Source: Lineus longissimus
Lineage: Eukaryota > Nemertea > Pilidiophora > Heteronemertea > Lineidae
Length of the DNA stretch: 64,000 nucleotides
Reading direction: 5' to 3'
NCBI RefSeq assembly: GCF_910592395.1
Contig: NC_088314.1
Span: 806,001 to 870,000 of the forward strand
Below are positions 17,420-61,747 of the stretch, in pieces. How positions within the stretch are numbered: position 1 is the first letter of the stretch; each line of letters opens with the position of its first letter. The notes under the pieces were generated by a model, which worked only from the letters and a program-made list of their open reading frames with translations, was not told the DNA's origin and searched no databases. Made by a program: the position numbers and the translations under genes.

Positions 17420-20400
17420 ATGGGAAAGCGAAGAACCAATAAGAAACCTAAAGTTACAGAAGTTGTCGTAGAAAATGTCACACCTAAAAGGATTACAGCG
17501 TACAGCGCCTTCCAAGAGAAGAATAGAATACCTAGATCAGCAAAACTGCCAATATCTGCTGGCAAGAAAAAGAATAAGGCAAAACTATCTGCCAAAAAAG
17601 TGAAGGAGGCTGTAAAGATGGAATCCGATTTGAAGGCAAAAGTGTCTATTCCGTCCAAGAGTCAGAGTCCTAATCTGTATGCCCGGAGTTTTTTCAAGAT
17701 ATTGGGTGGGAAGCCTGCCAGTAAACAAGTAGAGTCTATATCTATTGTTAGTGAGAAACTACCAGGTGCTACCAAGAAAGACGAGGTTGATAAACAAGTT
17801 GTCGGTTCTGATGGAAAAAAGGGCAAAAGGCAGAGTAGGGGAAGGAAAAATGTCCCTGTGAAAGAAAGCCCGCGTAGATTTGATCCCAGTGTGTTTGAAG
17901 CTGGGAAAACTGAGCTGGATAGGGCTGTGCCACAAACTGCTGTGACAGAGGTTGGCATTTCAAAGGTGGGCTGTGATGGTGGTGATGTCAGGAAAGTACG
18001 GAGGACCTCAAGTCGAATTTCACCAAAACTGAAAAAAGAGGATGAACCCAAGGACTCTGAACTATCAGAGGCAAAGAATGCTACTGATAGAAAAAGGAAA
18101 GCATCTGAGACTGAGAGTAGGAAAACTTCACCAAGAAGTGTAAGGACAAGAAAAAAGACCAGGAAGGGTGATGGTTTGAAAATCGTTGGACATGGGAAGG
18201 TTGATTTGGAGATTGTGCCATTTGTCCGTGCTGGTAATGATAGGATAGTTGACGAAACTGTGGAGGACTCCGTGTTGGACAACACTGTAGAAGACGATGT
18301 CACTACGGAAATGAGTGATGATACCTCTGCTGTGATAAAATCTAATCAGTAAGTAAATTTTTTCCCTCGATTTGTTTATTTTCTCTGGATTTGTGTCTTT
18401 GCAACTGCTAACAGAATGGAATGTTACGCTGAGTGTTATTGAAATCATGCATGTATAATCTGCCTATCAGTTGCAAAGTGCTATGTCATTGTCTGTCACG
18501 CTGCTAAACCATCTACTGTGTAGTTTGTTCTAAAAAGTCTGCAAGCTATGAATGTTTGTTTTCTCTTCTAGGTTGATCCCAGTGCCTGATGAAGACCAGG
18601 TATATGTCGTACTCGATCACCCACAGGAGCTGTGCCTCAGAGGAAAATATTCAGTAAAGACTTTGCTAGGCAGCGTTACCCTCCTTGGCTATGACATCAA
18701 ACAAGGCTCGTCTACTGTAGAAGTGTTCTCACCAGAGAACTCAAGCCACCTTGTTATCAAGACGATGGCTGTCACATCAGAGCAAACAACAATTGTGTTG
18801 GAATCGGAAATAAAATCTAAGAAGACATTGGAAAAAGTTCGAGAGGTGCTTAAGGGAAACAGTACTGTGATTAGATTGGAGAAGCTAGAGTGTTCAGTGT
18901 GCGACAAAGTTTGTGTGGTTAACCCCTTCCAATCTTTGTTTCCAAAGAGACATACAACAGCAAAATCATCTGACGTTGATGTACAGCTTTCAAAGATTGG
19001 TCTGACTGTTGCTGATGACAATACTAGGAGGTGTGTTATTGGTGAGGAGTATGACCAGGTGGCCAAGGCTTTCTCTGCTGCAATTCAGACTGAGGCTGTG
19101 GCACCGCCCGTAGCTGTCCTCTGTGGTGGGAAAAACGTTGGCAAGTCCACCTTGGGGAGATTCCTCATCAACACTGCACTAAACAGGTGAGTTGGCTTGC
19201 ATTCACATCGCAAAATTTGCAACGTTGAGACGGAGATGTTAGTGTTCCAGTCAGAACTTTCATGCCATCCAGGGTATCATAAATTCCGAGTGTTAAGCCT
19301 CACCTTGCCCCAAAATTCTCATTAAACTGCATTTGGTCAACTCACTGTTTTGCGTAGTGGTGGAACTACAGATTTTCTATTGCTATTCATACTGGCATCA
19401 TTTCATCGATATTTGTTTATATTGTTCCATTTTCAGTTGTGATGCCGTTGGATATCTTGAGTGTGATGTGGGGCAGACAGAGTTCACCCCTCCTGGATGT
19501 GTGGCTTTCAATATCATCTCTAAACCATTACTGGGTGAGTCATGTCTTGGCCAATATAGTTAGAATAGAAATCTTGATTGTATGTATTGTGTCATGTTCA
19601 AGTTTCCCAGACTCAAGTCTATTTGATATAAATGAGACATATGATAAATTGTGCTCTTTTCGACTGTTGAGAATACTGAAGGTACTTTGTGGTGTGTTAT
19701 AGTACCTGTAACCAGTCATGATAGAAAGTTAAATATTGATGATGAAAATCTTACGGTTAACACTTGAATTTCAGGCCCACCATTCACCCATCAAAGAAAT
19801 GCGGAGTGGTGAGTTTTATTTTGGTATTCTTTTCAAGATCAACGGTCGAGCGCTATCCTGGTCTTCCATGATAAGGAGATTTGATATGAGTCGGTTGTAG
19901 ATAACACTCTTCTCGTACTGCTATAGGAGGGCCACTGACACAACTGTCATCATATCAACTCAAGGTGTTTTGATCTTTTGTTGCAGCACACAGCCTGGCA
20001 ATAAAATGATTAGGGTTGAATACAGAAAGAGATCCTTGTAGAACTTACATTTACGTCTCCGATCCTTCCTTTGCAGCATGTATTACATGGGTGCCTCCTC
20101 CCCTGGTGACAATCCATCATTCTACATCGATTGTGTGAAGAAGGTGTTTAGTGTGTATCAATCCATGGTACCCAAGATCCCTCTCATCATCAACACAATG
20201 GGCTGGACTCAAGGTATGAACATCTCGTTTCATTACAAGATTGTTGATAAGTAATCAGCCTGCAAGTGAATGGTTGAGGCAATCGAATTCAAGAAGAGTC
20301 AAGTTCTTCAAAGTTAATCCAGAAAAGAGCAGGGCTTCTCTGATACTTTTGTTCATTGTTTGGCCTATTTCAGGTATGGGCATCCCGTTGCTGATGGACA

Positions 20401-21914
20401 CCTTGAGAATAGTCGGCCCAACTTTCATAGTGCAGCTCCAAAGTTCAAGCTACTACAGGAACTATGCACCACTTACGACGGAGTATGTCTTGAAGACTCC
20501 AGGATGGAAACACACAGACACCAAGAACAGCGGTCATGTTCACCATGAGCACTTTATGATACAGTCACCTACCAACTTAGCCACGGAGTAAGTACTCAGA
20601 TACATCTTCAGCAGGGTAAAACTTGGCCTCTCCTTGAGCTGAAGTCTGAAACCTGTTGTCTTTGTCCTTGGATGTTCCAAGACAATTGGACTCCCTGATG
20701 ATGACAGGGGGAACTCGGTGCTTAGATCTTTCTGGCATGTGTTTTATGGACTGTTCAAAAGAGTTATTTTTCACCTTTTCAGTGGCCATGAGAAGTATAA
20801 GGCAGCCGATCACCGAGACCTCGCCATCCTGGCCTATTTCAGTCATGTGCTGCCCCCTAGTGTCAGCCTGATGAACATCCACAGCATCCAGCCTTACGTG
20901 TTGAAGTGGAGTTCTGTTGCAGTCCATGTGGCTAACGCAGTCGTCCCACAAGCTCAGATCATGTATGCCCTCAATGCAACCATTGTGGCTTTGTGCCATG
21001 CTGATACTTCATTGGTAGGTCCGGCTGAGTTATTGCGACATTTTAACATTGGCTGGTTAAGTTTGCTTCAAGTAAAACCTTGTTGGCTTTCTTTGGCTTT
21101 TGTAAGTTTGTGCTGGAAAATGGCTTTGTTTATTGTAATGTCAGATTGGCACAAAGGATAAGACAGTGTGTCCTCTGAGATCATGAGTTTGATTCTGGAA
21201 TCAAAAACAAAGATTGCTTCTCAGCAAGTATAAAGTATAACCCAGCCACTGAGAATGCCAGACCCAATTCCCAAATAGGAGAGGCAGAATTATTCAGTTG
21301 AACCCTCTCCTTTCAGATGATACAAGGAAAAGATGAGAGACTTCCCAAGTCCTTCTCTAAAATGCCCACCTGTGATTGTATAGGATTTGGTGTAATAAGG
21401 GCTATTGATCCCGTAAAGAAAGTCTTCTACATCCTGACACCCGTCGCCAAGAATGAGCTCCACCTGGTAAACACGATCATCAAGGGCGCTATAACGATCC
21501 CGAGCGAGTTGCTGGTCATACCAGTAAGTTCCTACCTGACACATCACTCATGACCTAGAGGAAGTCACTTTACTTTGATTGTCACATCCTTTGAATAAGA
21601 TTGAAACCAGGATTCCTTGTGCCAGGTGCCTATTCCTGGGCAAGTTATGATCCCAAGTGATAAACTTGTGATGGAGACCTCCTTTCAGTAAGTTATTGGT
21701 GCTCAACCATCGTGGAAAGGAACAAATGTTTGGTGAAGGTAATGCACTGAGATTGAAATTGCCTGTTTGTAATGATGATCTGTCTTTTCTTTTGCAGAAA
21801 TCCAGTGTAACTCGGCCGTATGTCGATAATCCACAAAACATACTAGGAGTTAAGCCTGTCGCTAGAAATTACTTGACGAGAAGAAAATCACCCCACAGAG
21901 TGAAAAAAGCTTAA
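17420..21914 (+). CDS. NOL9: Polynucleotide 5'-hydroxyl-kinase NOL9
   Basis: Nine coding exons: 17420-18348, 18572-19186, 19437-19534, 19775-19808, 20077-20213, 20374-20587, 20783-21014, 21317-21523, 21798-21914; phases join to give 860 aa (human about 702). Residues 1-310 are a lysine/serine-rich, probably disordered nucleolar extension. The kinase core carries a Walker A loop, GGKNVGKST (~495-503), then YLECDVGQTEFTPPG, YYMGASSPGDNP and PLIINTMGWTQGMG, as in the Grc3/NOL9 Clp1-type kinases. In animals NOL9 works with LAS1L to phosphorylate and process ITS2 during 28S rRNA maturation. A GTGAGT donor lies 5 nt after the stop codon and an acceptor at 24144, so a 3' UTR intron is possible. The extra length is mainly N-terminal. 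Confidence 0.94.
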
Positions 21915-28900: not shown

Positions 28901-30699
28901 GCTACAGTTGCTGAGACAGCAGCTGCAGTTGATGAGATTACAACTGTAGATGCTGAAACAACAGCTACAGTTGCCGAGGTAACCACTGTAGATGCTGAGA
29001 CAACAGCTACAATTACCAAGGTAACCACTGTAGTTGCTGAGACAACAGCTACAGTTGCCGAGGTAACCACTGTAGTTGCTGAGACAACAGCTACAGTTGC
29101 CGAGGTAACCACTGCAGTTGCTGAGAAAACAGCTTCAGTTGCCGAGGAAACCACTGTAGTTGCTGAGACGACAGCCACTGAAGGTGCAGTGACTACAGTT
29201 GCTGTAGTTGTTGAGACTACTGCTGCGCCTGTGATAGAGACTACTGTTGCCACTACGGTGGCTGGCACTGCAGAGACTGCTGGAGCAGCAGAAACATCGA
29301 CGTTAAGCGCTGGCAGTGATGATGCAACCACTATCGCTGCAGGTACTTCTTCATTTTGAGTTTTCACCAAATCATTTTCACCCCTTTTTCCATTCATAAA
29401 ATAATTTGCTAAATGCTAAGCTTATTTCTATGACATAGACAGTGCCTTTGATTGCTCTTCAATGCTTTTCATTCCTTTTCCACCAAATATACATTCTTTC
29501 TGCACCAAAGGCTTTGCTTTGCTTCACATTTTCAGGAACTACGCAATCAACAGTTTCTCTTCGTGCTAACACTACCACAGCTGCTTCTGTTAAAGATGCT
29601 TCGACGTTACCCACTGACTCCGCTTCAACAGTGGTGGCTTTCTCACCTTCTGACGCAGCTACCAGTGCAGATTCGACGTTACCCACTGACTCCGCCTCAA
29701 AAGTGGTGGCTTTCTCACCTTCTGACGCAGCTGCCAGTGCAGATTCGACGTTACCCACTGACTCCGCTTCAACAGTGGTGGCTTTCTCACCTTCTGACGC
29801 AGCTGCCAGTGCAGATTCGACGTTACCCACTGACTCCGCTTCAACAGTGGTGGCTTTCTCACCTTCTGACGCAGCTACCAGTGCAGATTCTACCAACGCG
29901 GCTGCCAAATCAGCTGTCACTGCCACCGCTTCAACAATGGCTGACGTAGCCACTTCTACCCCAGCTCCATTCACTGCTACAGCAACTGGGGACATTGTGA
30001 CATCTGCTTTAGAGTTCAAAACGGCCACCACTTTCACTGCTTCAACTACTAACTCCTTGCCTACAGATTCAGACTCAGATGTGACAACTTCAACGTCAGA
30101 GGATGGGGCGACTCAAGCAGAAGGTAGATAGACAAGTGTCGAATTGAGAGACAGTCTTGACGTATCGAGCTCCTTTACTCTTCAACTCTACAGTTCAATG
30201 TCTGTGCCAGTGGCATCTCATTGGCAAATTGGTCCACAAAATGACTTTGGACCAACATCACCATTGGCTTCATGACTCCTTGGTGGACTTGGGCCAAATT
30301 GTTCCAAAAGAATTAGTCACTTTACATCACCTTGAACTCGGCAATAAACAGGTAGCATTTGTGGCCTGGTCACGAGTGAAAGGGTATGACCCAATAGGGG
30401 GTCACCTGCTACTATAGTACTCATGCATTGTGTTGTATAGTAATTGTAAAACCTTTCTTATGAGTAGCACTGTAATGTGTAATTCTTGGAATTAAGTGTG
30501 CGGGATTATTGGAATTGGGTTCAGATAAGATACCTGTGAAAATTCCCACGGTCTACTTTTAATCCTCCATTCTCCCCAGCGTGATCAATTACGTCAGCAT
30601 TGATGCGGCTCCTCATTGGATGGAGACGCATCAACGTTGCCCCCTGATTGGTGCAGACAAAGCTGCGCGTGAATACAAAACAGCTGTCCGCACGCTCTC

Positions 30700-47651: not shown

Positions 47652-50600
47652 ATGTGGAGACTACAGCCCCATCGCCTTGGCCAGCTGGCCTGCCGCGATG
47701 CGCGGTCAGCACTGTTTCAGTCTTACCGATGTGCGAGTAGTGGACAGAAGGTGATGGCGATACGACGCGAGGACCACAATGTCTGGGAAGGACGGGCCCC
47801 ATTGGCCCCATCTCATGTCAAACAGTTAGTAAAGGCAGGAGTTAAGGTTTTGGTTCAGCCAAACAATCGCAGGGCATACACAATGCATGTAAGTTCTAGC
47901 CCTAGTCAAGCCCTAATCTAGCTGTATTTATGTAATGGATAGGTATGTACAGTACAACCTCTCTAATGCGGACACCCATGGGACTGGGCGTTGGTGTCCG
48001 TAATGTAGAGGAGTCCTTTATAGGGAGGTTATGCCATCATTGTCCAAAAGGTGTAGTCATGTTTATGAACACGGGAGTCGTGATGCCTGCATATACAACT
48101 CAATGTTACAATATACAGTAGCTTGACAATGTGATGCACAGTGAAGATAATTAAACAATACATTCTGTTTTAATTAGGAGAGCAGCGGACATTAAATTCA
48201 TTCCACTCCAATTAACTGAACTAGTGTCTAATTATGTTAATCATTTACGCAAACTTCACAGCTGTTAGGTCTAATCGACTACCTAAGTGAACACGGGAAG
48301 CCATTGTTTTTGTTTACTGTCCGTAATTGTGAGGTGATTGGACCAAAAAGTCACCATGGCCGTGACCGCAATTCAGAGTAGAGAGGTGTCCGCCCTACCA
48401 ATTGTTTGGTTAAAGCAAATGACTTAGAAAAAAATCGGGACTGAACAAACATGTCCGTAATGCGGAGGTGTCCGCCTGGCAGAGGTGTCCGCCTGGCAGA
48501 GGTGTCCGCAAGGGGAGGTTCTACTGTATTATCATGTTCACTATTGTATTGTAACTTTTAGGTTGCTCAATAATGTCCAGGTACAACAATGTCAAGCTTA
48601 TTAAAAATGGCAGGCAACAATGTTTGTATGGACCATTGCCAAATTTGCTGATTGATCATGAATGGTACATTTGCATATGAAATTGGAGGGGGTGATCTCA
48701 TAAGATTTTTGAGATGATTTTACTGTGACAGTGATAAATAATGTAGCATATTTTATGATGTCCTTACTGCTTGATTTATAAATTGCACTTCTGGAATAGG
48801 TGCTTGAAATTAGACATGTACTTGGCCTCGGGTGCTTAAGATATAGAGTGGCTGATTTAACACAAGGAAGATAAGATACAATTGTTAGCCTGTAAAGGGA
48901 CTGAGGGTGTCTCAATGGTCAGGGGGTCTAGGACATATATATCTTATTAGGATGGTAATCTTTGCTATGGCTGAGTTGTAGTCACCCCATTTCATGTTGT
49001 CGCATTGGTTTTCAGGAGTATCAGCAGGCTGGTGCAATCATCCAGGAAGACATCACAGAGGCGTCGTTGATCCTAGGTGTGAAGCAGATCCCGATCGATG
49101 CCCTCCTTCCTAATCATACGTATTGCTTCTTCTCCCACACCATCAAGGCCCAGGAGGAGAACATGCCCATGTTGGATGCCATCTTAGAAAAGGTCAGCTG
49201 ACAATCAATCCATCAATCAATCAATCTGTCCGTCAGTCAATTAGTTAATCATGGAGGGTCTGAAAGAAGTGCTTGAACTCAACTTTAAAGAATTTCTAGT
49301 TTCTAAAGGTGCTGAGGACAAACCTGACATTGGTTTCAGATTGAGAAGTAGAATTTGATGACCGCTATACAGAATATTCAGCAGTAAGGTCGTAGAATTC
49401 TAATGTGTCTGCTCTTGTTTTGCAGAATATTCGCCTCCTGGACTACGAACGATTTGTTGATGAGAATGGAAAGCGTCTGGTGGCGTTTGGTAAACATGCT
49501 GGTGTGGCGGGCATGATCAACATCTTGCATGGGATGGGCGTGCGCTTGCTCGCCCTTGGACACTACACTCCATTCTTGGTGAGTATGTGAGGTTGCCATA
49601 GTTACACGAATGATGACCTTGATCAATGAAATCTCAGGTATATTCTGTTCAAATAGCAGACATTTCATGATGGCTCAATGGGCATATGAACTACACATTG
49701 TAATCAGTGATGGGTCACAGTGTGCACAAGAGTATTTTGGAACTACTGTGTGATTAAAAACATGCTATTGTTAGTCAGTTTGATATCAATTCCTTTTCAG
49801 CATGTCGGACTTGCCCACAACTATCGTGGTACAGGCATGGCAAAACAAGCAGTACGTGATATCGGCTATGAGATAGCGCTGGGTAGCATTCCTCGCAGCA
49901 TGGGCCCTGTCATATTTATATTTACTGGATCTGGCAACGTTTCAAAGGTAAGCATTCAAGTTCTTTTTTGGAAACACTTTTGTAATGCACGTTGTAAAAT
50001 CAAAAAACCTTTCTATTTTGTTTATTTGTTTGGTCGTCTTCATGTATGTTTCTACTGTATCAAACTTCTTCACTTTTGTTGTCATTTAGACATCATTTTA
50101 TTCCTTCTTAAAACGATCATTCAGGAGATACTGATACATGTTTGGTAAAAATGACAGAACTTAGATGTTTTTTCACACTTGGTGATATGTTTCCAGGGTG
50201 CCCGAGAGATATTCCGTGAACTTCCTCACGAATGGGTAGAAGTAGAGCACCTACCCAAGGTGGCAAGACAGGGCAGTGAGTACCTTCTACATAAAAGGTT
50301 CTAAGATTTATAATGTCTTGGTTTTAAGACTGTTCATTTCAAAGGGCACACCAATTGTTTTGTTAAAAGGGCCTCCATGACTTTCTAGCCCTGCAACATC
50401 ACATGTGTGTAGGTCTCAACAGAGGCTACCAACTATATCATTCCACCATTGCAGGTATGAATAAGTTGTATGGTTGTGTTGTCAGCCGAGGTGACCACTA
50501 CGAAAGGATTGAAGGTGGCGGATTCGATGTTGAAGAATTCACTCAACACCCAGAAAGATATATCTCAACTTTCAGTTTGAAGGTCTGTACAGTTGTGCTT

Positions 50601-53600
50601 GTTGTTTGAGGTTTGTTTGACCTCTGATGGAATCACTGTGCCAAGACAGGCAACAACTGTATCAGGGATACATGCCTAGTGTCCAATTGCTACCATTGGG
50701 TGTATTCAAGTAGTGACAGTTATTAAGTCATGCAGTACCCCTATACCAAAGATATGGTGATATTTCTAAGATAAAATGATGTTTCTTGTCGGAATTTTCT
50801 GCCATACATGTATAACTTCTTTGATCTTTCTTTCTTCTGATGACAGTGAGTGTGTTCTCTCCTAGGTGGCGCCATATGCAACTTGCATCGTGAACGGTAT
50901 CTACTACGCCCCTGGATCCCCACGTCTCATCTCAATCCCTGACGCCAAGACGTTGCTACGGCGACAAGAGATGCCCTGGCTCCAGCAGTCGCCCGGCTCA
51001 CCGACCCTTCCCCATCGACTCATAGCGATCTGTGACATCTCGGCTGATCCTGGCGGTTCAATCGAGATTATGGACCAATGTACGACCATTGATCGACCAT
51101 TCTGTATCTATGATGCAGACCAGCACAAGAACTCTGAAAGTTTTGACGGTGATGGTGTTGTGATCTGCTCAGTAGAACAACTCCCGGCACAGATACCCAT
51201 CGAAGCGACTGATTACTTTGGTGACAGGTTGATTTCCTGGGTCCCAGATATGCTCAAATCGTTTGCTACAGAACCATTTGAGAAGTACGAGGCATGCCCA
51301 TCTGTTAAAAATGTAAGTATACTGCAACATTTAAACCAAGATTCACATCAAATCTAGAGGTCTTGCTGGATATTGTCCCCTTATGATACTCGCCACCCAT
51401 CCCACAAGTGCTTTTATTTTCAAATCAATACTAGTCTGATATTCTTTGTGATAAGCTCCAGTCTTGCCACACCCAAGCTGGGCTGCTTCTTGCCCTGTGT
51501 GAGTGATGTCAATCGTCTGTTTGATGTCTTATGAGAAATGAGAATATGAATGCATTTCCATCGGGTCATATCTTCATATTTTCTCTTCAGGCTGTGATCA
51601 CATCAAATGGCAAGATAACGCCAAACTATGCGTACATAGAGACCATGAGGACGAAGAGAAGGTAGGAGATGTTACATGAACACTTGTTAAAGTGGGTTTG
51701 GAAGAAAAGATAGCTCTCGAAGGAATCCTCACCTCAGGATTCCAGAAGCTTGTTTTCCTGTGCAAACTCGCTGTCCGGGCTGCTGTTGACCTAGGCAGGA
51801 TATTTCAGTTGCCGTGGTATATACACCAAGTACAAAAGGAAACACTTGGCCGCTAGCTGAGAGTGTGAACCACTCTAGGTCCTTGTCGTTAGCTTTGAGA
51901 CATGAAGTAATGCATATTCGCTTGATAGGCCAATTGCTGTTATTGTTTTGTGGTTTTACTGCCTGTTATTTTCATTTTTAATCCAGATTGAGAATAGGGT
52001 AAGCCATTGTTTCTATCATGAAGCAATGTTCCTAACTCGGTAGTGGTGGTGGTGTGTGCTCAACTCATTATAACTTCAATCAAATTCCATTGAATACACA
52101 CTCGTATCACTTTGTTAGTAATTGCCATTGCCAGGCAAGCATTTCTCATTTAATCATTCCTCCGACGATTGTTTCAGGTCATTATGGTTACATTGCATCA
52201 TTCCTTCAAATTCCATTGGCTTCACTACCTGTCATGTTAACCCTTTTAGCCATTTAGCAATATTTGTCCTTCACTTGTAACAACTCATTGCATAGCAGTA
52301 AATGAAATGGCCAGGGGCCATTGTGCTCACCGGTTGCGAGATCTGCAATGTAATCAAAGTAAGGTAATCAACCCAACAGTACATTGTAATAGGGACAGAT
52401 GAAACTGTACTTGTACTGTTCATGCATCTCTTTGTGTACTGGTTAAGGTTATGATAATAATCTACAGTAATGAGAGTCATGTTGATATTCAGACCTTTTG
52501 CTCTGAAATCTGATATGACTGTTTTATTTGACGACTGAAGGGTTTCACCTACCAGTCCACCTGTATCCCGATTAATCGTCAGTTGTACATTTTGTTGCAG
52601 GGTTAGTGTAGAAAATCAGAAATCTGCTAAAAAGGTGCTCATTTTGGGGGCTGGCTATGTTACAGCTCCAGTCATTGATTATCTCTCACGAAAGAAAAAT
52701 ACCCAATTGACCGTAGGTGCGTACTCTTATCAGTTTGATGTTTTCTCTTTCCTAGATGTAATCACAAGTTAGGTCATTATATTTGCTCATGCCACTTTGA
52801 ATGAACAGACTCACAGTGAACAGATTTGGGGTTATAATCATAAATCTTTTAGTTGTCAAGTTCCAACCTGAGCATATTTGGTCTTGTGAGTCCATTAGGC
52901 CCAAGTGGTGCATATTAGTCAGTTACAAGCCACTTAAGTATCTACTGTTAAATCATCATGAGCACTTTGAGAAAGTTCATTCGAGGCGGTTTGGCTTTTT
53001 AACCATAACTTCCTTCGGTTGCATGATGTAACACTTCCTTCACATATTGTGATGTTTACATTTTTTCCAGGTCTAGAGAGTTGGCCTTTATAGCAGCCAA
53101 GACTAAACTCAAGAAGGTTTTAGTCCTGGGTTCTGGTTATGTCTCGGCCCCTGTGTTAGAGTATCTAACCCGCCAGAAATCTGTATCTGTAACCATAGGT
53201 GGGTATAAGCCAGACATTGTCATGATCAGCATGGGTGCTTAGAAGTTCAGGATGTGGACGAAAGTGGGCCTGAAAACATGGCTCATATGAAAAAAGACCA
53301 GTATACTTTTTCTGGTCTTTATTTATGACTCAGTGCAAGAAACAAATGAAGCCTGGCCGAGTTGGGTTAAAGTATCCAATGAGAATGAGTGAACGAAGTT
53401 GGGCCAATGCTCTCTTCAGGCGTGACTTAGTAGTGCGTTTGCTCAAGTCATGGTGAACTAAGTGCCGTTATGTCTGTATAGTACCCCCAGGTATATGGCA
53501 CGGCTTAACCCGCCGGCCATGAGGGAATTCCTTTATGGCCCAGTGGTTGGCGCGTTGGCCCCAGAGTGGAAGTTAAGCAACGTTGAGCGCGGTCAACCTT

Positions 53601-56600
53601 CGGATCGGTGACCGGCGCGTACAATACTATGTCTGAGTCTCTCATATGACATCCTGGTTACCTGCTCCAGAACCAAACTGTTAGGGTGGGATATTGCCCT
53701 CCGTCTGGCTGCAGGCTTGGCAGATGTAAAGGCTATAGTGTGCGTTATTGTTTTATTTGTGTCTTCATTTCTTTATTAAAGTCTTCACGTGGCATGTGCG
53801 GTGGTCGCATTTCTCCTTCTGTAGCACATGTCCTATCCAATCTTGTAGCTGCTGTCGCTCCACTAACCCCACAAGTCATATCTGATTTCAGAATGAGTTT
53901 GCCCTTTCTTCCTCTTCCAAACTCGTGATAAAGTTTCCTCTCTGAGAGGAACTATTGATAATTAACTCCAATGTAGTTATAATGACAAAAGATAGGCAAC
54001 ACTAGAAAAGCGTGGCTTAGATGGCTGTAATTGTACTGTCTGCTTCATTGGCCTACCAAGCACTAGAAGTAGCTCTCTGCTTCTTGGGGAGAGGTGCCCT
54101 GAAAAGTTGTTGCTATCTTAGGAAGAGGGATGCACACCTCATGAAGACCCCCCAAATCTGCCACTGTCATGAGAGGGCAAGACTTCAAGAATGGGTCGTC
54201 TGCTACCAACATTTGTTTTCACAATTCAGACTGTCATGCTGTAAAATGTTGGTAGGTAATCATTCAAACTGTCTTCATCAGGGTCTCTCCATTCCTTTAC
54301 ATTGTGAACTATACTTCATGTAACTTGTAAGTGGCTTGCCATTCATCTGTTTCACCAAACTATTTCTATGAAATTAAGTTTGTTCTGTTCACAGCGTCGA
54401 ACAGCCGATCAGAAGCTGCCCAGCTGGCGTCAAAGTATCCAAACACAGAGCCTCATTATGTGGACATGATTGAGGGTGCGGAGAATCTGGATGGCTTGGT
54501 GAAGGAGCATGATCTCATCATAAGGTACATGACTGCCCTAACATTTTACCTCCTGTTTACTCTTAACTTGCTCAAGAATGTTAGCGAGATATTGACACAG
54601 ATTTGTGACAGTTTTGACATGTCTCTTTCAGTATGTTTCCTCAGACGTTCCATATCCAGGTTGCCAAGACGTGCATCAAGTATCAGAAGAATATGCTGAC
54701 CAGTAGTTACATCTCACAAGAGATGAGGGAACTCCACAATCAGTAAGTACTTTATGACCCGACCGCGTGGTTGCCTCCGGGTAAAATTAGAAACGATAAG
54801 TAAAAGAACTTTTAGAAACTGGTTTGTTTTTACCTCATTCTGAGTCGGCAATTTCAGCTGGTTTGCATGAAATCACATCCTCTTCTTAGCTTTTGACAAC
54901 AGCTTCAAATTCTTTTGTGGAGGATTTCATGAATGGGGCTGAAGCCTTGCCAGCCACCATCCCTTGGGGTTGGGTCTTGATGTCCGGAATCTCATTTCTG
55001 TGGCAAAGTGGTTATTCTCTGGCGAGGTCGCTATCTGCTGGATGTCAAACAGAGCACAGTCAGTCAGAGAGTCATCTGAGTCTGGCATGAATGTGCAGCT
55101 GCTGTGATCTGTTCTTTAACAAGAAATCTTCCATATTTCAGGGCCAAGCAAGCGGGGGTGACCCTCCTGAACGAGATGGGTCTGGATCCAGGTATCGATC
55201 ATTGCCTTGCTATGGAAGTATTCGACGAGGTCAAGGAGTCGGGTGGAAAGGTTACATCATTCATCTCTTACTGCGGAGGTCTCCCATCTCCTGAACTCAC
55301 GTGTAATCCACTTCGATACAAGTTCAGTTGGAGTCCGATGGGAGTGCTGAGTAATGCCATCAGACCGTCCCGGTATCTCAGAGACAATGAGGTAGGCACA
55401 AGCTACTAATCCCCATACATGAGGAAGCAGAGCACAGGAATGACAACTCATATCTGTTAAAACTAATGAGCATTTAGCTGTTATCAGTCAAGTTTTCTTA
55501 GGGCCGACAGGTCACATTATTGGATGTGGTTTGGAGTTGCTCCGTGATTTGCTGAATATTTACAGGATAAGCTGACATGTACTCTTCATCCCTTTTCAGC
55601 CAGTTGAGATCCCTGCTGGTGGCGCCCTCATGGATGCAGTGGAGGAGCTGGATTTCCTGCCAGGATTCAACCTAGAGGGCATACCAAATAGAGATTCCAT
55701 CATCTATAAAGACATATTCAAAATTCCCGATGCCCATACTATACTCCGAGGCTCAATCAGATACAAGGTAACGTTTCTTCTTCCTTCAAAGGCAGTAATA
55801 TTTATCTCTGCTGTTTCCAACAAGGCATGATTTCAGGTCAAGTAACTTCGAGTGAGGGGATATCATTGCCAATTACAACTCTGATAGTTGTATTTAATAT
55901 GGTATATTGTCATGTTTTCAGGGATTCTGCAATGCGATGAAGGGTATCGTATCGGTTGGTTTGATCTCGCCGGACCCTGTGTCTGCCCTTCACCCTGGAG
56001 GACCAGACATCACATGGGTAAGTCACCAGTCAACGGCACATTCTTGTACCAATGTCTTTGTGTTGCAGTTTGCTGGCTTGCTTTCCTCATCGTTCAAGTT
56101 GCAGCTGTCATCTGAATATTTGGAACTTGAGAATTGGCTGAAAGGAAGACTTGCATAAACACTTTAGACACATGGAATCTGCAATTACAGGATCGATTTC
56201 AACCTTTATATGATTGTCAATTTCTGAAGCAAGTTCTCTCGTCTGGTTTTACATTGAACCCTCCTGATTGATTTGTCTTGTTTCACTTTCAGAAAGAGTT
56301 TATGTGTGGCCAAGTGAATGCTCCCACGGATATCTTCCATGACACTCTCAAGGATCTTGTCTTTGAGAAGTGTGGCAGAGACAAAGCCAAGTACAGGGCG
56401 ATTGCAGAGTACGTTGAACACTTGCCTTCTTGCCTTCGTCAACTCATATTTTCAAGATTGCTAGTTTTTGACAGCAATGATGGAGTGTTTTGTGCTTGGC
56501 TTACCATCTTGCAATGGCATACTGGTTATCCAGGGCTTGAACTCTCACTTCACGGGTTGGGAGTTGGAACACCTGTCTGATCACCTTTGCCTTCACAGGT

Positions 56601-57539
56601 GTAACACATTTTGACTGCTTCTCTGTTTCAGTCTTGGTCTCCTTGACGATGAGCTCGTTGAGAAGAAGTATACGCCAGTGGATACACTCGCCAAATATCT
56701 CGACAGCAGGCTGATGTATGGTGAGTGGCAACTTTACAAAATAATCTTAAAGTGGCAAAATAGAAATAAGATATTTCATTAGGACTACAGAGCCTGGGTA
56801 CTGATATTTTGTGTTTGAAGAGCAAGAGTGTCACCTTATTTTACACATGACTTTGGATGTGAGTTAGTGGCATGAACTGGGAGGAGGACAGTTGGTTTTA
56901 GGGGCCTGTGACATGCCTCTCAGCAGGTGCCTGAGGCAGGAAGCTTCTGCTTTCATCCAATGATGCCAAGCATCGCTGTTGCTCAAGATGTTGTTTCAAA
57001 CATGGTTGTCCACTAAGATATAAACCAGATGACAAGCTTGACCGAATGATTGTTACTTCCATTCTAGGACCTGGAGAAAGAGATCTAGTGATTCTACGCA
57101 ACCTGACCGAGGTCAAATGGCCGAATGCCGCCACCGAATTACGTGATGTCAGATTGGTGGTGTATGGCGACAGTGCCCCCAATGGACACAGCGCCATGGC
57201 CAAGTGTGTCGGGTATACTGTTGGTGTGGCGGCTAACATGCTTTTGGAAGGTAGGTGTATGTCATGTCTCCCAGGAATGATCTTTGCTAACTTACCAATA
57301 TCCCTTCTCTCAAGATGTGACATTGTTCAAGCTTTCAGGCACGGCCCGTGTAAGCATACCAAACACACCTAATTGTCCTCAAAATCCAACAAAAGTGATC
57401 ACTTTGTATGTGTGTTTCAGGTGAGATCCAAGAAAAGGGTGTATTGATGCCCAAAGATGTGACGATCTATCGACCTGTCCTGCAGCGTCTGCGGAAGGAA
57501 GGCATCATCGCAACGGAGGATATCATTAGAGGGAAATAG
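47652..57539 (+). CDS. AASS: Alpha-aminoadipic semialdehyde synthase (LKR/SDH)
   Basis: Eighteen exon positions, one with two alternatives: 47652-47888, 49016-49192, 49426-49578, 49801-49947, 50197-50275, 50455-50582, 50866-51312, 51591-51661, [52601-52716 or 53071-53198], 54395-54524, 54632-54742, 55142-55391, 55600-55767, 55922-56017, 56293-56408, 56632-56720, 57068-57250, 57421-57539. Length is 938 or 942 aa (human 926). A basic mitochondrial presequence is followed by the lysine-ketoglutarate reductase half ([80 protein letters not shown]). The saccharopine dehydrogenase half follows (GxGY.x[46 protein letters not shown]). It catalyses the first two steps of mitochondrial lysine catabolism. 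Introns hold a pogo-like MITE and a 5S-like SINE. AATAAA at 59435-59440 may end a 1.9-kb 3' UTR. Confidence 0.96.
47950..48526. mobile_element. Pogo/Tigger-like non-autonomous DNA transposon (MITE)
   Basis: The left end CAGTACAACCTCTCTAATGC followed by GGACACC, and the right end read on the minus strand, CAGTAGAACCTCCCCTTGC followed by GGACACC, are matching terminal inverted repeats. Both ends are flanked by TA (47948-47949 and 48527-48528), the target duplication of Tc1/mariner-pogo elements. The 577-bp element has no transposase frame and contains two or three copies of GAGGTGTCCGCCTGGCA near its right end. It lies in AASS intron 1. Confidence 0.8.
52601..52716 (+). other. AASS: AASS alternative exon 9a (Rossmann glycine motif)
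   Basis: A 116-nt exon with acceptor TTTTGTTGCAG and donor GTGCGT. It enters in phase 2 and leaves in phase 1, and encodes [20 protein letters not shown], the first beta strand, glycine loop and helix of the saccharopine dehydrogenase nucleotide fold. It is open and shows no decay. Its N-terminal part (VSVENQKSA) is four residues shorter than that of exon 9b. Confidence 0.85.
53071..53198 (+). other. AASS: AASS alternative exon 9b (Rossmann glycine motif)
   Basis: A 128-nt exon with acceptor TTTTTTCCAG and donor GTGGGT. It has the same phases as 9a (in 2, out 1) and encodes [20 protein letters not shown]. It resembles the vertebrate AASS segment ([17 protein letters not shown]) more closely than 9a does, so it may be the ancestral copy. 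The intron between the two copies is 354 nt. Confidence 0.85.
53524..53650 (+). mobile_element. 5S rRNA-like SINE head
   Basis: Positions 53558-53620 read GGAAGTTAAGCAACGTTGAG, then CGCGGTCAACC, then TTCGGATCGGTGACCG. This follows the internal control region of 5S rRNA (box A AAGCTAAGC, then GGATGGGTGACC) while being too diverged and incomplete for a working gene. An upstream TGGCCCAGTGGTTGGCGCG also resembles a tRNA A box. 5S-derived SINEs are known from several animal groups. It sits in the AASS intron just after exon 9b; its 3' tail is not defined. Confidence 0.55.
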
Positions 57540-60941: not shown

Positions 60942-61626
60942 TTGTGACTTCCTCATCTCTCTCATCATGTTGTCAACACGGTGGAGCAGCCAGGACTGAT
61001 TCGGCCTGGCTGTGACTTCCTCATCTCTCTCACCATGTTGACAACTTGGCAGAGCAGCCAAGACTAATTTGGCCTGGCTGTGACTGTCTCATCTCTCTCA
61101 CCATATTAACAACTAGGCAGTGCGGCGAAGACTGATGCCGCCTGGCTGTGACTGTCTCATCTCTCTCACCATATAGACAACTTGGCAGAGCAGCCAAGAC
61201 TGATTTGGCCTGGCTGTGACTGTCTCTCATCTCTCTCACCATGTAGACAACTTGGCAGAGCAGCCGAGACTGATTTGGCCTGGCTGTGATTGTCTCATCT
61301 CTCTCGCCATATTAACAACTAGGCAGTGCGGCGAAGATTGATGCGGCCTGGCTGTGACTGTCTCATCTCTCTCACCATATAGACAACTTGGCAGAGCAGC
61401 CAAGACTGATTTGGCCTGGCTGTGACTGCTGTCTCTCATCTCTTTCACCATGTAGACAACTTGGCAGAGCAGCCGAGACTGATTTGGCCTGGCGGTGATT
61501 GTCTCATCTCTCTCGCCATATTAACAACTTGGCAGTGCGGCGAAGATTGATGCGGCCTGGCTGTGACTGTCTCATCACTCTCATCATGTTGTCAACACGG
61601 TGGAGCAGCCAGGACTGATTCGGCCT
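60942..61626. repeat. 68-bp minisatellite with higher-order structure
   Basis: Ten units start at about 60942, 61010, 61078, 61146, 61214, 61284, 61352, 61420, 61493 and 61561, each opening CTGTGACTGTCTCATCTCTC and closing near GATTTGGCCTGG. The units fall into types: A (CAACACGGTGGAGCAGCC), B and D/E (CAACTTGGCAGAGCAGCC) and C (CAACTAGGCAGTGCGGCG). Their order is A-B-[C-D-E]-[C-D-E]-C-A, so a three-unit block of about 206-209 bp is itself duplicated and the array is bounded by near-identical A units. Confidence 0.9.
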
Positions 61627-61747
61627 GTGCACCCTCGCAAGACGAGTTGCCCATACCAGGTAATGCCAAATCAGTTACCCCCAAGACTAACACTGGAACA
61701 ATGGGGTTGTCCGCTTCACTGCCCAGACTGCTGTAGGGACGCTCCCA

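Follow-up and report, generated by a model that had tools for sequence, protein, structure and literature searches.

AASS Gene of Lineus longissimus

The window, i.e., the whole 64-kb stretch of DNA analysed here, contains a complete AASS (LKR/SDH) gene of the ribbon worm Lineus longissimus, which was spliced in silico and whose main features are listed in Table 1. AASS catalyzes the two initial reactions of lysine degradation, one of which is rate-limiting, and is a drug target (PMC13174811). The domains AlaDh_PNT_N, AlaDh_PNT_C, Sacchrp_dh_NADP, and Sacchrp_dh_C were identified by Pfam in isoform A (the product with exon 9A), placing the LKR (LOR) and SDH domains in one chain, which is the mark of AASS. 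The SDH half matched the human structure 5l78 (E 4e-134). Human residues were mapped to Lineus with the numbering checked at eight residues, and six of the eight cofactor and saccharopine contacts of human AASS are identical (Tyr490, Asp604, Pro605, Ser653, Arg703, and Arg726); most contact residues are thus kept, as in an AASS they should be. When the whole genome (391,118,348 bases in 30 contigs) was searched with isoform A, all 19 matches at E up to 0.001 fell inside the window, with exons 9A and 9B found once each, indicating that AASS is a single-copy gene at that sensitivity.

Table 1. Features of the AASS locus (positions within the 64-kb window).
Feature	Position	Strand	Remarks
AASS coding region, complete	47652..57539	+	18 exon positions, position 9 filled twice
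AASS exon 1 with start codon	47652-47888	+	
AASS exon 8, common to both isoforms	51591..51661	+	ends after 2 bases of codon 480
Candidate 12-nt microexon (ATTGAGAATAGG), intron 8	51987..51998	+	would insert four in-frame residues ahead of 9A or 9B
Exon 9A (alternative)	52601..52716	+	116 nt; completes R480, then 38 residues
Glycine motif GAGYVTAP, dinucleotide-binding, in 9A	52647..52670	+	
Exon 9B (alternative)	53071..53198	+	128 nt; completes R480, then 42 residues; version in NCBI isoform X3
Glycine motif GSGYVSAP, dinucleotide-binding, in 9B	53129..53152	+	
AASS exon 10, common to both isoforms	54395..54524	+	begins at end of strand beta-2; encodes Asn525 (isoform B)
AASS exon 18 with stop codon	57421-57539	+	

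Structure of the 9A/9B Exon Pair

The initial annotation described two tandem homologous exons in AASS, and reading the sequence directly and splicing it by script returned the same two exons, with the same junctions to exons 8 and 10. Each exon opens on the third base of one codon and closes on the first base of another, so that their entry and exit phases agree. Consequently, as had been claimed, one exon at a time keeps the frame: 9A alone yields a protein of 938 aa (isoform A) and 9B alone one of 942 aa (isoform B), both open throughout, while in silico inclusion of both exons leads to a stop at codon 526 and omission of both to a stop at codon 506. The splice sites are intact, with 9.8 bits (acceptor) and 7.9 bits (donor) for 9A, and 8.4 and 8.3 bits, respectively, for 9B. 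These scores, computed with a matrix derived from the remaining exons of the gene, lie within the ordinary range of AASS, where 16 other acceptors score from -3.1 to 14.7 bits and 16 other donors from 3.1 to 10.7 bits, each left out in turn.

A tblastn search of the window with either exon finds the other (E 5e-10 and 4e-10), and no further match under E 1, i.e., no third copy of exon 9, was found in the 64 kb, indicating that the likeness of 9A and 9B is not due to chance. In the core, 17 of 29 residues are identical, and the glycine motif is kept in both exons. The N-terminal leads, in agreement with the initial annotation, differ in sequence (0/9 aligned residues identical) and in length, the 9A lead being four residues shorter. 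The regions flanking the two exons share short, chance-like matches only; together with the divergence of the exons themselves, this suggests that the duplication is not recent.

Sequence Constraint and Age of the Duplication

The two exons were compared with 196 relatives, namely the distinct AASS proteins among the matches listed (the best 120 of 1561 and the best 120 of 858), leaving out NCBI isoform X3, which is identical to isoform B. Nine of the 30 core columns are conserved at >=98% in these listed relatives, and both 9A and 9B keep all of them (9/9 each), in support of the proposal that both copies are constrained. Residues found in <1% of the listed relatives are rare in either exon (one in 9A, two in 9B). 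The mean identity to the listed relatives over the 30 core columns was 18.3 for 9A and 19.4 for 9B; 9B is the closer exon for 150/196, 9A for 32/196, and 14 are ties. The 13-residue lead of 9A is unusual, because none of the 196 listed relatives has a lead of this length, three having 11 or 12 residues and 193 at least 14.

Between 9A and 9B, 13/29 first, 3/29 second, and 19/29 third codon positions differ, and the difference between second and third positions is significant (Fisher P 2.8e-5). A neutral 9A accounting for half of the distance at third positions should show 14 differences at second positions, and three or fewer has P 1.6e-5; with a quarter of the distance P is 0.011. With a tenth, P is 0.41 and neutrality at second positions is not rejected, so the codon test alone is compatible with a very young neutral 9A. 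The core contains no stop, but neutral simulations were also stop-free in 28, 37, and 57% of cases (half, quarter, and tenth of the distance, respectively), and a stop-free core is therefore weak evidence of constraint. The core gave dN 0.42 and dS 0.93 by one method, with dS not estimable by another, and the terminal branches in a 30-sequence core tree are 0.19 for 9A and 0.16 for 9B. From these comparisons, 9A does not look like a decaying exon.

The age of the duplication was addressed with trees of 30 columns and 28 relatives chosen from the 196. In the AU test, a 9A+9B clade gave P 0.33, a grouping of 9B with Tubulanus 0.60, and one of 9A with Capitella 0.51; a 9A+9B+Tubulanus clade gave P 0.083 and was excluded by bp-RELL and c-ELW. 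Position 515 is Lys in 9A and Gln in 9B, and Asp in 165/196 listed relatives, including Tubulanus; the loss of Asp515 in both exons pulls the opposite way to the tree tests. Trees of so few columns cannot settle the age of the duplication.

Structural Location of the Swapped Segment

Isoform B, and only this isoform, was modelled by AlphaFold2 from 32 sequences (mean pLDDT 73.8, pTM 0.53). The model contains a helix at residues 467-490, strand beta-1 at 494-499, a helix at 505-512, and strand beta-2 at 518-524. Exon 8 ends inside the first predicted helix; exon 9B completes codon 480, encodes residues 481-522, and begins residue 523. The swapped piece is thus predicted to span the second half of this helix, a short hinge, beta-1, the glycine loop, helix A, and most of beta-2. 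The model is weakest where 9A and 9B differ most, with a mean pLDDT of 56 at residues 481-490.

In human AASS, a long helix flanked on either side by flexible linkers connects the LOR core with the SDH dimers, and the SDH dimer is turned by ~40 degrees between two structures, as described in the preprint (PMC13174811). Judging from its place in the model, the helix predicted at 467-490 may correspond to this bridging helix. 9A and 9B differ most at the end of the helix and in the hinge joining the two halves of the enzyme. On the scale used, the mean helix-forming cost of the exon-encoded lead is 0.436 for 9A and 0.282 for 9B; among the 196 listed relatives, 4% have leads cheaper than the whole lead of 9B and 77% cheaper than that of 9A. 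Because the largest differences lie at the helix end and hinge, altered domain coupling or a changed NAD affinity is the effect that we favour.

Cofactor Binding

According to the preprint (PMC13174811), the NADH contacts in human AASS are Tyr490, Asp512, Ile533, Ser653, Asp604, and Pro605, and Asp512 contacts the adenosine diphosphate of NADH. Only Tyr490 maps to exon 9, where both isoforms have Tyr; the other five map to exons common to both isoforms. The contacts changed in Lineus, Asp512 to Asn and Ile533 to Met, are likewise in shared exons. The residue corresponding to human Asp512 is Asn525 (isoform B), encoded by exon 10 at the end of beta-2, and this site is variable in the family, with Asp in 2/196 listed relatives. 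Cofactor handling may vary across animals. From 9B to 9A the glycine loop changes from GSGYVS to GAGYVT, and both variants occur in AASS of other animals (Ala in 22/119 and Thr in 2/119 among the matches listed).

It had been suggested that the isoforms could differ in NAD/NADP preference, in affinity, or in coupling to the LKR half. The first of these suggestions is weakened, as five of the six NADH contacts are shared and Tyr490 is the same in both isoforms; a NAD/NADP switch by exon choice appears unlikely on the sequence comparison. A difference in affinity or in coupling to the LKR half would fit the sequences better than such a switch. The residues known to hold the cofactor are either retained or encoded by shared exons, so the exchange most likely adjusts the motion of the SDH half and the hold on NAD rather than the choice of cofactor.

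Isoforms in Databases

Isoform B is identical (942/942) to the NCBI protein 'alpha-aminoadipic semialdehyde synthase, mitochondrial-like isoform X3 [Lineus longissimus]', which carries 9B and sits in a 90% cluster of four member sequences. The name 'X3' suggests that NCBI probably annotates three or more isoforms. When the 90%-clustered proteins were searched with the 9A segment, seven candidates came up and none was a match; because isoforms that are >90% identical are collapsed in that set, this is the expected outcome both with and without an annotated 9A. Tubulanus is the only other nemertean recognised by name among the matches listed, and its protein has one exon version. Among these database entries, none containing 9A was seen, and its use in transcripts is our inference. 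Both exons look functional, suggesting that the worm is probably able to make two forms of the enzyme.

Candidate Microexon and Possible Maintenance of Exclusivity

Of all acceptor and donor pairs in the scanned introns, that of a candidate 12-nt microexon in intron 8 (Table 1) scores highest (17.8 bits, the next pair reaching 11.6), and it remained the sole pair at 17.8 bits when the 9A-9B intron was added to the scan. Shuffled versions of intron 8 equalled this score in 24/1000 cases, or 10/1000 if the length had to be divisible by three; over all introns, the shuffles equalled it in 15% and 4.3%, respectively (n=300). As a control, 11 pairs as good were found on the plus strand of the first 47 kb of the window and one on the whole minus strand, some of which may come from real genes. 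The microexon would add four residues, the same as the length gap of isoform A. The idea that it is needed to restore the length was rejected, as listed relatives have leads anywhere from 11 to 21 residues long. Two choices at two places would give four proteins, and that this equals the member count of the NCBI cluster for this reason is a guess.

Two candidate mechanisms that might keep 9A and 9B exclusive were considered. Steric exclusion was rejected, because the 9A-9B intron of 354 nt is too long and the donors are ordinary GT sites. Competing RNA structures were dropped as unproven. An intronic inverted repeat (52502-52520 with 53874-53892, 18/19 complementary) encloses both exons and is the strongest across the region; a repeat as strong occurred in 1/200 dinucleotide shuffles, but one as strong or stronger also in 4/22 other segments of equal size in the 64 kb, a fifth segment that holds this very repeat being left out of the count. 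The best duplex energies were -29.7 for the 9A acceptor region and -38.5 for that of 9B, and 12/58 segments tested reached -38.5 or lower, so that these energies are unremarkable. A search of the region against Rfam gave one match, far under the cut-off of its family. In human, 377 (60%) of the mutually exclusive exon clusters have exons not divisible by three, as reported in a survey (PMC5740500). The 9A/9B pair resembles these clusters in that frame incompatibility guards against double inclusion, and by analogy with them this may be a sufficient guard in AASS.

Interpretation of the Exon Pair

Taken together, 9A and 9B are in our view probably a genuine pair of mutually exclusive exons, with both products probably active and the swap most likely tuning the motion of the SDH half and its hold on NAD. 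In the mechanism that we propose, the pair would have been born by tandem exon duplication in the single-copy AASS gene, and the spliceosome would pick either 9A or 9B. Transcripts with both exons or neither would be frameshifted, meet an early stop, and presumably be destroyed. Both regular products would probably be active bifunctional enzymes, in which the exchange most likely adjusts the movement of the SDH half relative to the LOR core and the tightness of NAD binding. Two natural isoforms whose sole differences lie in the hinge and the NAD-binding fold would allow a direct study of how the halves of this bifunctional enzyme cooperate.

The opposite view, in which 9A is a leftover of the duplication that is rarely or never used and is heading to decay, so that only 9B matters, is unlikely, though several observations agree with it: the database protein found carries 9B, most of the listed relatives are closer to 9B, no relative with a 9A-like exon was found in the search of 90%-clustered proteins, and a young neutral 9A is compatible with the codon test. 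Against decay stand the ordinary splice sites and correct phases of 9A, its full set of near-invariant residues with a single rare residue, and the paucity of second-position differences relative to third-position ones. An artefact of assembly or haplotypes is almost certainly not the explanation. Unmerged haplotypes can yield tandem copies, and a tandem pair such as this one could in principle arise in that way; however, the two exons differ at 12/29 core residues, their flanks show no more than short chance-like similarity, and the rest of the AASS gene is single copy.

Two further explanations accept both exons and assign them another role. A NAD/NADP switch of the SDH half by the pair is very improbable: the swapped piece does hold beta-1, the glycine loop, helix A, and most of beta-2, and the loop itself changes between the exons, yet the site of human Asp512 lies in shared exon 10, Tyr490 is kept in both isoforms, and the Ala and Thr loop variants are found in the AASS of other animals listed. 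The pair might instead mainly set the amount of AASS, with messages containing both exons or neither being unproductive and lowering its level. This is quite improbable, even though both kinds of message do meet early stops and, in one comparison of genes whose exclusive exons had been validated, frame incompatibility held for 20 (71%), and 18 had reads that linked the two exons (PMC5740500); a plain poison exon needs no working coding sequence, whereas 9A keeps one. The exchange of two active isoforms that differ in SDH motion and NAD hold is the reading that we retain.

Comparison with Known Systems

Mutually exclusive exons arising by tandem duplication are a known kind of alternative splicing, while for AASS no description of such a pair was found in the literature, in line with the initial annotation; the search covered titles and the starts of abstracts, with few subscription journals. 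No literature was found on mutually exclusive exons in nemerteans within the same scope. The word 'AASS' is absent from the main text of surveys of human duplicated or exclusive exons, PMC5740500 among them, and according to a 2026 preprint (PMC13174811), post-transcriptional control of AASS has not been reported.

In plants and mouse, LKR-only or SDH-only products arise from LKR/SDH genes via internal starts, intron read-through, and early ends, as described in PMC3017810. Lineus AASS is similar in that one gene gives more than one product, and differs in that the products in plants and mouse are partial; the term 'mutually exclusive' is absent from the main text of that source. Pyruvate kinase provides a vertebrate case, in which the mutually exclusive homologous exons of PKM1 and PKM2 tune enzyme kinetics, although in another enzyme and in another part of the enzyme.

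A close parallel is coq-2, whose exons 6a and 6e occur in helminths, annelids, and molluscs and are used one at a time, the swap changing the substrate, as supported by RNA-seq and exon deletions in C. elegans (PMC7434440). Between the a and e exons, two substitutions, one from Phe to Leu and one from Ala to Ser, are invariant in rhodoquinone makers, according to the same paper. Like 9A and 9B, 6a and 6e are tandem homologous exons of a metabolic enzyme in worms that encode the same segment twice. The function of the coq-2 swap has been proven, however, whereas for AASS we infer it, in another enzyme and with exons that differ by 12 nt. AASS would then be the second metabolic enzyme, after COQ-2, apparently retuned by exon swap in worms.

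Five matches were obtained in a UbiA search of the Lineus genome, of which two lie on contig C9; judging from these matches and from the family, the gene there is presumably COQ2. Self-comparison of 28 kb around the two matches revealed, among many repeat-like pairs, two tandem exon-like frames: an upstream one at ~10350009-10350139 (~131 nt; LNWG...IYSHQ, 6e-like) and a downstream one at ~10353119-10353252 (~134 nt; FNWG...IYAHQ, 6a-like). They are 57% identical over 53 columns, much as 9A and 9B are, and the pair doubles as a positive control. Judged by its residue changes, this COQ2-like pair appears to fit the 6e/6a signatures, which would predict rhodoquinone in ribbon worms. No literature on rhodoquinone in Nemertea was found in our search, and the string 'Nemert' is absent from the main text of PMC7434440.

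By analogy with coq-2, the choice of AASS exon beside a 6a/6e-like pair might act as a redox or oxygen switch in ribbon worms, a speculation to which we give little credence. If it were true, one isoform would serve aerobic lysine breakdown and the other low-oxygen mitochondria with a high NADH/NAD ratio, the difference being set by the hinge and the NAD-binding fold.

Other Features of the Window

Upstream of AASS, exons of a NOL9-like polynucleotide 5'-kinase are present at 18552-21158, with a Cupin_NOL9 match (E 1.9e-17) and a NOL9_C match below the cut-off (E 4.4e-5). Two tandem arrays with 42-nt and 72-nt units lie at 28906-29890 within long open frames on both strands. Downstream of AASS, a further tandem array at 60943-61627 consists of ~ten copies of 68-nt units, with a higher order of 206 nt.
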